45,189 nt of DNA from Clostridium thermobutyricum (lineage in GTDB: Bacteria > Bacillota > Clostridia > Ch29), in contig JAENYD010000018.1 of assembly GCA_016842005.1 (NCBI GenBank), positions 1 to 45,189 on the forward strand, read 5' to 3'. A program made the translations under genes and the position numbers. Under the pieces are notes generated by a model. That model searched no databases. It saw nothing but the letters and a program-made list of their open reading frames with translations, and had not been told where the DNA came from. Of the stretch, positions 28,971 through 45,189 are shown in pieces (positions within the stretch are counted from its first letter, which is position 1; each line of letters begins with the position of its first letter).

Positions 28971-29723
28971 TCACTGTATGCTGTTGAGATATTCAACCAG
29001 CCCGCAGCTTATAGCTTCGGCGATTTTTTCCCTGAAATTAATATCCAGAAGCAGTTTTTTATCCTCGGGATTTGTAATAAACCCCAATTCAATCAGCACC
29101 CCGGGTATGCGGGTTTCTCTCAGAATATAATAATCATTTACTCTTATTCTGGTTCTAAGGGACGCATCCCTGAGATATCTTTCATAAATCATGATATCAA
29201 TGGAATGCTTTATAAATTGGGCCAGTTTTTGGCCTTCCCTGGACTCTGGATAATAAAATACAATCATCCCCCTGGTTTGCGGATGACCGGGGTCAGAATC
29301 CACATGTATGCTTATAAAAATATCAGCCCGGGTTCTGTTTATAATATTTTTCCGGGCATTTAAATCCCTTCTGTGTCTTGAAGCCTTTAAACTGCTTTTG
29401 CTGTCAAGGGATATATCTTTGTCCCTTGTTAGTAGTGCTTTAACGTGTTTATTTTTAAGTATATTTGCTATTCGCAACGATACATCCAGGTTGATATCCT
29501 TTTCCAGTAATCCGGCTCTGTCGGTGGCACCACCATCTATCCCTCCATGCCCCGGGTCTACAACCACGGCATTGTAAGCCGTGCTGTTATCATTAAACAC
29601 TAAGAGAGTTTTTCTGACAGATGGAGGTATCACTGCCATAAGAGTAAATATGAGCGCAGCGGTTATGAGTATCAGCAGTTTTCGGTCGATTTTTATTGTA
29701 ACGATAAATATATTACCGGGCAT
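28971..29723 (-). CDS. cwlD: N-acetylmuramoyl-L-alanine amidase CwlD (spore cortex)
   Basis: A 250-residue zinc amidase of the Amidase_3 family. An N-terminal membrane anchor (LLILITAALIFTLMAVI) is followed by the catalytic domain with VVDPGHGGIDGG (His59), LLEKDINL (Glu74), ISIHVDSD (His140) and the late catalytic Glu in VLIELGFITN. CwlD works with PdaA to form muramic-delta-lactam in the spore cortex, the mark read by germination lytic enzymes. GGAGG lies seven bases before the ATG. Length and single-domain layout fit CwlD better than vegetative amidases, which carry extra wall-binding repeats. Confidence 0.9.
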   Translation of the reverse strand: MPGNIFIVTIKIDRKLLILITAALIFTLMAVIPPSVRKTLLVFNDNSTAYNAVVVDPGHGGIDGGATDRAGLLEKDINLDVSLRIANILKNKHVKALLTRDKDISLDSKSSLKASRHRRDLNARKNIINRTRADIFISIHVDSDPGHPQTRGMIVFYYPESREGQKLAQFIKHSIDIMIYERYLRDASLRTRIRVNDYYILRETRIPGVLIELGFITNPEDKKLLLDINFREKIAEAISCGLVEYLNSIQ

Positions 29724-42074: not shown

Positions 42075-42972
42075 AACTGTAAAAAGACAGTTTTATGAAG
42101 GAATAGTCGCGTTATGGAGAAACAGGGTCATGAGCCTGGCTTCAATAAGTTCTGTTACGGCTGTCCTCCTTGTACTGGGTTTGTTTCTGGTGATAACCCT
42201 CAATATGAACAGCATCATCCTGTCGGTAGAGGCTGACGTAGAGATTAAAGCCTTTCTTGAGGAAGGCCTGGCTCCAGCCCAGGTCAGCGGCATAAGAAAC
42301 AGGATCGAGAATATTAACGGGGTTAAGAGCGTGGCATTCGAGTCCAAGGAAGAGGCCCTCCAGAAATATAAGGAGCGGCTCGGAAATAACGCTGATTTGC
42401 TTGAAGGGCTTGAAGGACAGGATAATCCTTTTCCCAGTTCGTACATTGTCAGACTTGACGACCCCAATACCGTTGATATGGTAGCACAAGAAATCGGGAC
42501 CTATGACGGTGTGGAAGACGTTGAATATGGAAAAGACATCGTTGACAAGTTGTTGAAGGCTACAAATTTCATCAGAGTGGCAGGTACCGGATTGATATGT
42601 ATTTTTGCGCTGATATCCATATTCATAATCTCCAATACCATAAAGCTGACTGTGGCAGCCCGGAGGAAGGAAATAAGCATAATGAAGTATGTCGGGGCCA
42701 CTGACGGCTTCATAAGGCTGCCATTCATTATTGAAGGTATGATGCTGGGGGTACTGGGTTCCGCCTTTGCTTCCGGGATACTTCTGATTGCATACAACTA
42801 TTTTATCAGATTTGCCAACAACAATTTTGGGGGTATCTACGTATTGATGTCGGGGAGACTTGCCCCTTTCGAGGATACAATGATGCTTACGTCCCTGCTT
42901 TTACTGGCGGCGGGTATTGTTGTAGGAGTGATTGGTAGCAGGATTTCACTGAGGAAGTTTTTAAAGGTATAA
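42058..42972 (+). CDS. ftsX: Cell-division protein FtsX
   Basis: Integral membrane partner of FtsE, 304 residues: cytosolic N-terminus, first membrane span (SISSVTAVLLVLGLFLVITL), an extracytoplasmic domain (about residues 60-165; GVKSVAFESKEEALQKYKER), then three spans with the FtsX-type domain (TIKLTVAARRKEISIMKYVG, ATDGFIRLPFIIEGMMLGVL). GGGGAGG precedes its ATG, within the end of ftsE. A perfect terminator closes the operon. No pcsB-like hydrolase follows directly. Confidence 0.95.
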   Translation: MTLKFRTVKRQFYEGIVALWRNRVMSLASISSVTAVLLVLGLFLVITLNMNSIILSVEADVEIKAFLEEGLAPAQVSGIRNRIENINGVKSVAFESKEEALQKYKERLGNNADLLEGLEGQDNPFPSSYIVRLDDPNTVDMVAQEIGTYDGVEDVEYGKDIVDKLLKATNFIRVAGTGLICIFALISIFIISNTIKLTVAARRKEISIMKYVGATDGFIRLPFIIEGMMLGVLGSAFASGILLIAYNYFIRFANNNFGGIYVLMSGRLAPFEDTMMLTSLLLLAAGIVVGVIGSRISLRKFLKV

Positions 42973-42973
42973 A

Positions 42974-42997
42974 ACAGCCGGTTCCGGCTGTTTTTTT
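42974..42997 (+). terminator. Terminator of ftsEX
   Basis: ACAGCCGG and CCGGCTGT (42974-42981, 42984-42991) are self-complementary, followed by a T run from 42991 to 42997. The next 280 bp, to 43273, hold no supported gene; TATAAT occurs at 43083-43088 but without a well-spaced -35. Confidence 0.85.
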
Positions 42998-43273
42998 ACT
43001 TGTATCTATCATTCCTTACAGCAGTTGACCTATTCCGGTCGATTTCCACAAATATTTACAAATTACTGTTTATGTATTTTAGTATAATGTATTCCAAATA
43101 TGTGACGATATATATCATAGAACTAAAAATGCATAAAAAATTTCTGAAAAGGTTGATAAAGCCCATGCGATTTCCGTCTTATATATTAGAAGCATGGGAC
43201 AGGTATAAACCTTAAACCTCAGCAGGGGGGAGTAATGCGATAACAGGGGCATAAATCTAGGGAGTGGTGATTT

Positions 43274-43813
43274 ATGCGTCATCTAATCAAAGGCTTTCTG
43301 GATGAGAACCAGCTGAACAAAAAACTGTATATTGCAGGGATTATTAACAGAGACCCCGGGGCTTTAGGAGTTTTGAACAAACGGTTTAACGACTATGTAT
43401 TCAGGCTGTACCTGTGCAGCTACATCAAAAAGTCCATCTGCAACGCATCCAGGGATATAAAGAAAAAACAAAACATACAGGGTAAAAGGGAGAAATTGTG
43501 CCTGAACGTCATAGAGGTTGATTTTGAAGAAGAGAGAGTAAATACCATACCTGACCTTCAGGTGGATTTTCTTGATGAGATATTTAGCAATGGCGGTATC
43601 AATAACTGCAGCGAGATGGTTATCTCGGACAGAAGACTGTCGGCAGCTTTGAGCAGTCTGACCGAAAGGCAGAGGGAGATTATCTTCAAATGCATACTTC
43701 AGGAGAAGGAAGAGGGAGAAGTGGCTGAAGAACTGATGATAACCAGGCAGGCAGTGAATAAGACCAAAAACGTCGCTTTGGAAAAACTGAAGAAGCGATT
43801 GGAAGTGATTTGA
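43274..43813 (+). CDS. SigO-like sigma subunit (region 4 protein)
   Basis: A 179-residue sigma-70-family protein. The C-terminal part (about residues 118-178) is region 4: LSAALSSLTERQREIIFKCI, then EEGEVAEELMITRQAVNKTK, a helix-turn-helix that reads -35 DNA. The N-terminal 110 residues are basic and helical (CSYIKKSICNASRDIKKKQN) and lack a complete region 2 with core-binding and -10 motifs. In Bacillus subtilis SigO (YvrI) likewise works with a separate region-2 protein, RsoA, and YvrJ is encoded in the same locus. The same three-gene set is present here. GGAG lies nine bases before ATG 43274. Function by homology only. Confidence 0.75.
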   Translation: MRHLIKGFLDENQLNKKLYIAGIINRDPGALGVLNKRFNDYVFRLYLCSYIKKSICNASRDIKKKQNIQGKREKLCLNVIEVDFEEERVNTIPDLQVDFLDEIFSNGGINNCSEMVISDRRLSAALSSLTERQREIIFKCILQEKEEGEVAEELMITRQAVNKTKNVALEKLKKRLEVI

Positions 43814-43981
43814 ATGGGACCGATTTTTGAGCTGATTGGAAATGTAGGGTTTCCTATAGCGGTTGCAGTCTTTCTTCTGGTGAGGATAGAGAAAAAACTT
43901 GATGATGTCAACAAGACACTCATCAACATGCTGGAGAGAATTAACGTAATACTGAGTGGTGATAGATGTGGAAGACAATGA
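43814..43981 (+). CDS. YvrJ-family small membrane protein, 55 aa
   Basis: Starts at the ATG directly after the stop of the sigma gene (GGAAGTG seven bases upstream). The 55 residues begin MGPIFELIGNVGFPIAVAVF with one membrane span, then LLVRIEKKLDDVNKTLINML and a polar tail. IGNVGFPIAVAVFLLVRIE is the YvrJ family signature. In Bacillus the yvrJ gene lies beside oxdC in the SigO/RsoA locus. No function is known; it might modulate the sigma pair at the membrane. Too short for ordinary gene finding. Confidence 0.8.
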   Translation: MGPIFELIGNVGFPIAVAVFLLVRIEKKLDDVNKTLINMLERINVILSGDRCGRQ

Positions 43982-44201
43982 ATTGAGAGAACTGCTTGAA
44001 GCCGCACAAAATGGAGACGACACTGCCATGGGCCAACTATTGGAGGTATTCAAGCCTGTCATTCTCAAAAACTGCATGATAGACAACAGGTTTGATGAAG
44101 ACTGCTTTCAGGAGTTGAGTCTGAAGTTTATAAAGTGCATTAAGAATTTTAAATTTGATAAGGAGATAGACATATACTCATGTTTGAAAGAACAGATATA
44201 A
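43956..44201 (+). CDS. RsoA-like sigma region-2 protein
   Basis: A protein of 81 residues from GTG 43956 (77 from GTG 43968, which has GAGTGGTG ahead and may be the better start). The sequence NELRELLEAAQNGDDTAMGQ, then LLEVFKPVILKNC and DEDCFQELSLKFIKCIKNF, fits the short helix-turn-helix/region-2 family that includes Bacillus RsoA (YvrHa). RsoA supplies core-binding and -10 functions missing from SigO. It overlaps the YvrJ gene by 26 bp. With the 43274 gene it would make a two-subunit sigma factor. A clean terminator follows. Confidence 0.72.
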   Translation: MVIDVEDNELRELLEAAQNGDDTAMGQLLEVFKPVILKNCMIDNRFDEDCFQELSLKFIKCIKNFKFDKEIDIYSCLKEQI

Positions 44202-44236
44202 CTAAAAATTAATTTTAAACTAGCAATTGATAAAGA

Positions 44237-44257
44237 AGCGGCCAGGGCCGCTTTTTT
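44237..44257 (+). terminator. Terminator of the sigma operon
   Basis: AGCGGC (44237-44242) and GCCGCT (44247-44252) around CAGG, then a T run to 44257. It closes the three-gene unit and separates it from the lipoprotein gene. Confidence 0.85.
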
Positions 44258-44339
44258 ATTGTATAACGAAAACCACCTGCTAAGCTGAAAAGGGCATGAT
44301 TCCATCACAAATATTATGGTATAAATGTAAAATATATGA

Positions 44340-44442: not shown

Positions 44443-45189
44443 ATGAGATCTGGAGGCAGGACAGGAAAACAGTTGATGGGTGTTTTCATATTTATATTGC
44501 TGACCGGTTTAATTCTATCCGGTTGTTCTGTTCAGGACACACATACCGCAAACGAAGGAAACGGGTCCGAACAGCAGTCTTCAATTGCCGAAAGCCCTGA
44601 TAACGTTGAAGAAGGTACAGATAATGAAGAAGAAAATATTATACCTTCCTCTGAAGTGAAAGATCTTACCTGGAAATCGGAAGGAGTACCATATACAGAA
44701 CCTTTTAAACTGATTGACGCATCCCATCTGCCTTTCACCACTTATATACCGGAAGAGGATTGGACTGCAATTTCAATTGATAATGGTGTTGTTTTTAAGT
44801 TCAAGCACAATGGGCAAATCAAAGTCGTATTTTTAGATAAAGGCACAACTCAACAAGACGCTGAACAGTATTTTCAAAAGATTGTAAATCAGTATCCCGA
44901 GATTTATGAAGAGAAGGACGATACTCAATCATGGGTTATTTTGTCTTATCATATGTATGATAAGACAAAGGGAGATGTTGAATACTGGAAATATGCAGAT
45001 GCCATTTTAGGGGAACGAAACAACCAGTACCTTATTATTATCTGGGGTATGGATAATTTCGAATATGCAGAAGTGTTTTATCCTATGGTGAAGGTGGTTT
45101 TTAAACAGTGGCGTTGGAGAGATACAGATGAGTTATTAGGTATCTTAGTTCTAAAATCTTTCGCAAAATGGAAAGAAAAATTAACATGA
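44443..45189 (+). CDS. Lipoprotein of unknown function, 248 aa
   Basis: Signal QLMGVFIFILLTGLILSGC with lipobox ILSGC, then a Ser/Glu/Asn-rich linker (about residues 30-70) and a globular domain: LIDASHLPFTTYIPEEDW, VVFKFKHNGQIKVVFLDKG, TTQQDAEQYFQKIVNQYPEI, YLIIIWGMDNFEYAEVFYPM. The stop codon is the last three bases of the window, so the gene is complete. AAAGGAG precedes the ATG. AT content appears higher than in the genes upstream. I recognise no family with certainty. It follows the split-sigma operon and is the nearest candidate for control by it, which is inference from position only. Confidence 0.75.
   Translation: MRSGGRTGKQLMGVFIFILLTGLILSGCSVQDTHTANEGNGSEQQSSIAESPDNVEEGTDNEEENIIPSSEVKDLTWKSEGVPYTEPFKLIDASHLPFTTYIPEEDWTAISIDNGVVFKFKHNGQIKVVFLDKGTTQQDAEQYFQKIVNQYPEIYEEKDDTQSWVILSYHMYDKTKGDVEYWKYADAILGERNNQYLIIIWGMDNFEYAEVFYPMVKVVFKQWRWRDTDELLGILVLKSFAKWKEKLT

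Follow-up and report, generated by a model that had tools for sequence, protein, structure and literature searches.

A SigO–RsoA-type split sigma factor operon enclosing yvrJ in Clostridium thermobutyricum and its possible part in a release module

The two-subunit sigma factor SigO–RsoA is known from Bacillus subtilis and is associated there with acid stress and oxalate decarboxylase. In Clostridium thermobutyricum, a comparable pair of sigma halves encloses the membrane peptide gene yvrJ on the 45,189-nucleotide contig analysed here (the window), raising the question of what such a factor would control in this organism. No bicupin oxalate decarboxylase was found in the 2.62 Mb genome by a TIGR03404 profile search, in agreement with the earlier note on this DNA, which expected a target differing from that of B. 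subtilis; likewise, oxdC was not found beside yvrJ among the genomes searched for a B. subtilis-like locus. The likeness to B. subtilis consists in the separation of region 4 and region 2 on small proteins, the order sigO before rsoA and the linkage of yvrJ (PMC8103513), whereas the position of yvrJ inside the operon, between the halves, and the missing oxalate decarboxylase set the window apart.

The operon consists of three intact open reading frames arranged head to tail on the forward strand (Table 1), and the profile searches proposed beforehand matched Sigma70_r4, YvrJ and HTH_16 in that order, as the three-gene reading had it. In the first product, Sigma70_r4 covers residues 125-174 (6e-07) and TIGR02937 spans residues 39-176 (2e-12). 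The sigO stop adjoins the yvrJ start, and yvrJ and rsoA overlap by 26 nt when GTG 43956 is taken as the rsoA start, GTG 43968 being a possible alternative; from this overlap, co-transcription of the three genes would be expected. The upstream neighbour, FtsX, has its own terminator at 42971-42994, and the operon is followed by a GC-rich hairpin and T-run that was read by eye and is absent from the terminator-scanner list. In addition, a hairpin with a 9-bp stem holds the ribosome-binding site of sigO in its loop, suggesting a possible translational control of this gene. The contig ends about 1 kb downstream of the operon.

Table 1. Features of the split-sigma operon in the window, and riboswitches upstream of related loci
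Feature	Position	Strand	Basis or remark
Predicted SigO–RsoA-type promoter, GGTTGATAA-N17-TCTTATA	43151..43183	+	fits split-locus motif; about 90 nt upstream of sigO
Hairpin GCATAAATC/GATTTATGC, Shine-Dalgarno in 11-nt loop, start codon in stem	43249..43277	+	repeat search
sigO-like gene, 179 aa, sigma regions 2.3-2.4 and region 4	43274..43813	+	Pfam, TIGR02937, alignment, model
Part coding for sigma region 2.3-2.4 (SigO residues 46-66)	43409..43471	+	alignment; R23 profile match, residues 48-67
Part coding for sigma region 4 (-35 recognition)	43631..43804	+	Pfam and profile match
yvrJ, 55 aa, one membrane span, holin-like	43814..43981	+	PF12841 8e-16; phrog_4898 'holin' 4e-08
rsoA-like gene, 81 aa, sigma regions 2.1-2.2	43956..44201	+	PF12645 (HTH_16) 1e-16, alignment, model
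Probable intrinsic terminator of the operon	about 44236..44258	+	AAGCGGC-CAGG-GCCGCTT then T-run, by eye
Lipoprotein gene, 248 aa, lipobox ..LSGC, no family match	44443..45189	+	contig end here
c-di-GMP-I riboswitch	L031 1791-1882	-	same as L100 3726-3817 (+)
c-di-GMP-I riboswitches	L032 1938-2029; L033 5169-5260; L112 4330-4429		

The division of the sigma factor was read from an alignment with unsplit sigma factors of the same family and with split homologues. RsoA-type proteins align with the first ~75 residues of a one-piece sigma (regions 2.1-2.2, with ..DDL.QE..) and end where region 2.3 starts, while SigO-type proteins have a helical cap followed by regions 2.3-2.4, a linker and region 4. 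Thus, neither window protein holds a whole region 2, which is complete only when both are combined. The AlphaFold model of the RsoA-like protein (pLDDT 87) finds nearly always sigma region 2 among its best PDB matches, with weak E-values (0.09 at best) that are consistent in kind; the SigO-like model (pLDDT 82) has a disordered linker and is matched by region-4 structures at about 1 Å. Because the 43956 and 43274 products hold complementary pieces of region 2, as seen by alignment, Pfam and models, 43274-44201 almost certainly encodes a two-subunit sigma factor of the SigO–RsoA type. This is what the earlier note had proposed: its short third protein does align with regions 2.1-2.2 and its model resembles sigma region 2, and the first protein carries only regions 2.3-2.4 and 4.

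A broken full-length sigma gene, or chance reading frames, would be another origin for such pieces, and sigma-gene decay is indeed seen in two related MAGs (L032 and L033). However, the C-terminal half precedes the N-terminal half here, the three overlapping frames are intact, and the arrangement is kept in 42 loci; with this conservation the explanation was ruled out, its probability being negligible.

The YvrJ loci were gathered from clostridial relatives, 80 named genome contigs, and Paenibacillales and Bacilli genomes, and they are of two kinds, having either a split sigma and YvrJ or a one-piece sigma, two small proteins and YvrJ, the latter being frequent in Clostridia. Among the split loci, mostly from Paenibacillales, 39 of 42 have sigO, yvrJ and rsoA in that sequence, joined by junctions a few bases long (the table of loci has 43 rows, the window among them along with some near-identical or repeated loci; 39-40 of these rows show this order). 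The split loci are related by descent, hence the locus counts are not independent; still, the recurrence of the three-gene unit in 42 loci is far beyond chance. The position of yvrJ between the halves, which the earlier note set against the B. subtilis locus, is no peculiarity of the clostridial context; it is the commonest arrangement. Examples of the split sigma include Ureibacillus galli, Lysinibacillus halotolerans, Tepidibacillus decaturensis and Paenibacillus alkalitolerans. Closer to the window, in its own family, the order is sigO-rsoA-yvrJ in one MAG, and L032 and L033 retain yvrJ beside decayed sigma remnants.

The unsplit cassette, whose two small proteins we take to be DUF1659 and DUF2922, ties the same sigma family to YvrJ and often continues with an amidase lacking a signal peptide. 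It differs from the split loci by a one-piece sigma and two additional small proteins and by the lack of the GGTTG motif and the LexA box; in the window locus, neither a one-piece sigma nor a DUF1659 or DUF2922 protein was found. Tn916-type elements, too, encode a short HTH_16 protein that forms a region-2-like half by itself, with Orf7 as the partner of Orf8, and the HTH_16 census of the class is dominated by Tn916 Orf8-like proteins of 76-106 aa, so that the window pair might be taken for such a mobile-element regulator. The Tn916 pairs lie on conjugative elements and are devoid of YvrJ, whereas the window operon is flanked by ftsEX and a lipoprotein gene with no conjugation genes in view, includes yvrJ, and encodes proteins that align with the sigO-yvrJ-rsoA group, making this origin highly unlikely. 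The Orf8-like proteins (L041-L044 and others) thereby make up a second large group of region-2-like halves encoded separately, and with Orf7 they may form another split sigma.

A shared promoter motif, for which the earlier note had suggested a genome search, was found among the split loci. Six related Paenibacillus loci carry TGGTTGTAAA-N14-TCTCTTTATA both before sigO and before the next gene, encoding a phage-type lysozyme or other hydrolase. The broader form GGTTGWW-N19-21-YTTAWW, which is new here, is found ahead of sigO in 22 of the 41 split loci, for an expectation of 0.08 by Markov shuffling; the reverse strand has 3 occurrences. As an in-sample figure this is flattering, since the pattern was partly derived from the same loci. 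Counted over whole split loci, the motif has 49 sites and the reversed pattern 3, compared to 2 sites for each in loci with an unsplit sigma. In eight whole Paenibacillus genomes (5.5-7.8 Mb), the strict motif has 2-4 sites each, with none for the reversed control; the intergenic ones number two or three per genome, corresponding to sigO and one or two neighbouring genes, namely the hydrolase gene beside sigO and, in a single genome, one further gene close by. The strict motif is missing from about half of the split loci.

In the window, the predicted promoter, absent from the earlier account of this locus, is the only place in the 2.62 Mb genome that matches its form when as many as 2 mismatches are allowed, and the looser motif would occur by chance in the window's intergenic strand at about 7e-4. 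Genome-wide, the loose motif has 13 matches against 8 for the reversed control, the sigO site alone being convincing; no second convincing site was found in the assembly, as the relaxed window motif gave 1 match and its reversed control 6. The operon is thus probably autoactivated from 43151-43183, judging by its sequence. The B. subtilis sigma operon is itself a SigO–RsoA target (PMC8103513). An inverted repeat, CCCATGC/GCATGGG, surrounds the predicted -10 element at 43162-43198 and is a possible operator.

The genes preceded by the motif in relatives encode a phage lysozyme, a SleB-type hydrolase, an amidase, glucosaminidase-like, C39-like and YkuD-type proteins and several unknown proteins, nearly all without an N-terminal hydrophobic segment. 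The hydrolase counts alone are not taken as proof, because the first control for their enrichment, the unsplit YvrJ cassettes, was not neutral and carries amidases too. Lipoprotein genes are found beside 16 of 30 split loci and 1 of 29 unsplit loci, groups that differ taxonomically, and the window lipoprotein gene, which has no SigO motif of its own, fits this enrichment. A sigma for acid or wall stress, as in B. subtilis, that has lost its oxalate decarboxylase target or exchanged it for an unrelated metabolic gene would share the two-subunit design, the yvrJ link and the autoregulation (PMC8103513); however, with the bicupin enzyme missing from the genome and the motif sites of relatives pointing to wall hydrolases, we consider it improbable. 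In the literature cited here, the GGTTG motif and such hydrolase targets are undescribed for B. subtilis.

Regarding the triggers, GAACNNNNGTTC, the LexA/DinR box, precedes sigO in 24 of the 41 split loci, where 0.14 would be expected, and in none of 18 unsplit loci (20 listed, minus L104 and L114, which are actually split). c-di-GMP-I riboswitches, seen in P. alkalitolerans and in three members of the family to which the window belongs, stand directly before the split-sigma operon or before the yvrJ left after sigma-gene decay; as a general feature the riboswitch was discarded, being absent from all other split-sigma loci scanned. The best reading of these sequences is that the trigger varies by lineage, with LexA/SOS control predicted in most Bacilli examined and a c-di-GMP-I riboswitch in two lineages. 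The window has neither a LexA box, with up to 2 mismatches allowed, nor a c-di-GMP riboswitch.

The role of YvrJ can be seen as an output or an input of the system. All six YvrJ proteins tested, the window's included, match phrog_4898, whose 'holin' label is an annotation; YvrJ is not a member of the BhlA or TcdE holin families. Two prophage-like contigs (L034 and L035) have yvrJ among lysis-type genes with no sigma at all, and in relatives YvrJ is followed by a signal-peptide-less amidase or lies near other hydrolases. In unsplit cassettes, where the sigma served by YvrJ is another one with other promoters, a signal-peptide-less Amidase_2 or Amidase_3 directly follows it in 5 of 10 tested; in L072, L097, L108, L110 and L118 these downstream amidases were observed, some with SPOR domains. 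The anti-sigma known from B. subtilis is YvrL. The earlier note had favoured a membrane input through YvrJ, that is, an envelope sensor holding or releasing a sigma subunit as anti-sigma or anchor. Its co-translation between the halves in 39 of 42 loci would suit such stoichiometric control, as would the conserved single span with an R-x-E motif; against it stand the known role of YvrL, the sigma-free yvrJ of prophage lysis regions, its outlasting of decayed sigma genes in L032 and L033, and its transcription in B. subtilis by SigO–RsoA as a target within its own operon (PMC8103513). We therefore regard the input as rather unlikely and prefer an output, owing to this B. subtilis target, the phrog_4898 match and the amidase and hydrolase neighbours, although the chances of YvrJ being a holin-like output are evenly balanced.

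Known systems of this kind are those of the clostridial group V sigma factors, UviA-UviB-endolysin-Bcn5 and TcdR-TcdE, which combine a dedicated sigma, a small holin-like membrane protein, a signal-peptide-less amidase and an effector (PMC9527704, PMC4885068); as reviewed for holins, the sigma UviA, the one-span holin UviB, an amidase and a bacteriocin form a fixed set, and YvrJ is unmentioned in that review (PMC9527704). The present family resembles them in its dedicated sigma with region-2 and region-4 parts. It may further resemble the Type 10-like release module of the UviA-UviB kind, as YvrJ is a putative holin-like peptide and signal-peptide-less muralytic enzymes are present in relatives. 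The differences are that the sigma is divided over two proteins, that the membrane peptide is YvrJ rather than BhlA or TcdE and that no effector was seen in the window.

By analogy, the RsoA-like protein would give regions 2.1-2.2 for core-polymerase binding, and the SigO-like protein regions 2.3-2.4 for the -10 and region 4 for the -35 element, both halves being required for one working sigma, as anatomy and the B. subtilis precedent suggest. The holoenzyme would then initiate at GGTTG...YTTAWW promoters (known as a motif), its own included, and, in relatives, at one or two adjoining signal-peptide-less genes, many for peptidoglycan hydrolases, while YvrJ, translated between the halves, would be the holin-like membrane peptide giving these effectors access to the wall, the whole acting as a sigma-holin-endolysin/bacteriocin release module.

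We lean slightly towards a split sigma that activates itself and drives a release module of the holin/endolysin kind, with YvrJ as output; effector release itself falls just short of an even chance. Against this reading, B. subtilis SigO–RsoA governs oxdC and no hydrolase, and the window lacks an adjacent hydrolase, a second motif site, a LexA box and a riboswitch. No effector was seen within the window, and no sigma-driven muralytic enzyme was found there or, by motif, in its genome, so a functional effector target of the window operon is somewhat doubtful; it may lie past the contig end, its promoter may have diverged, or it may have been lost as sister genomes lost their sigma genes. More tentatively, SigO-YvrJ-RsoA may form the regulatory centre of a release system widespread among Firmicutes and so far undescribed, gated by LexA or c-di-GMP, with the window as a clostridial member having its own trigger, the sigma switching on only itself, YvrJ and one or two signal-peptide-less wall enzymes or bacteriocins, and the nearby lipoprotein perhaps giving immunity.

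As a lone locus, the operon is a new member of a known design; the common promoter, the control by DNA damage and the hydrolase targets set the family apart. With them, the SigO–RsoA design gains a large family, a readable promoter motif and a tiny regulon, which in most Bacilli examined is also associated with a DNA-damage switch through LexA boxes, and the data hint at what the orphan YvrJ peptide may do. As for why a sigma would be split, the three overlapping genes could couple YvrJ and both halves into one all-or-none burst.

Further genes were observed in passing. An Amidase_3 gene at 28971-29723 (-) of the window lies 14 kb from the operon, has no SigO motif and is probably unrelated. 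Small signal-peptide-less proteins with a hydrophobic middle are encoded in L227 (8944 onward), L128 (37 onward) and L239 (3907-4362), two of them behind the SigO motif, and are possible bacteriocins without a known family. Finally, proteins of 340-390 aa and unknown type are found beside the split-sigma operons of L224 (7145-8188), L236 (6770-7927) and L235 (7947-8960); the two that were scanned had no Pfam match, and all three share GGG(Y/F)..YS(D/N)NPE.
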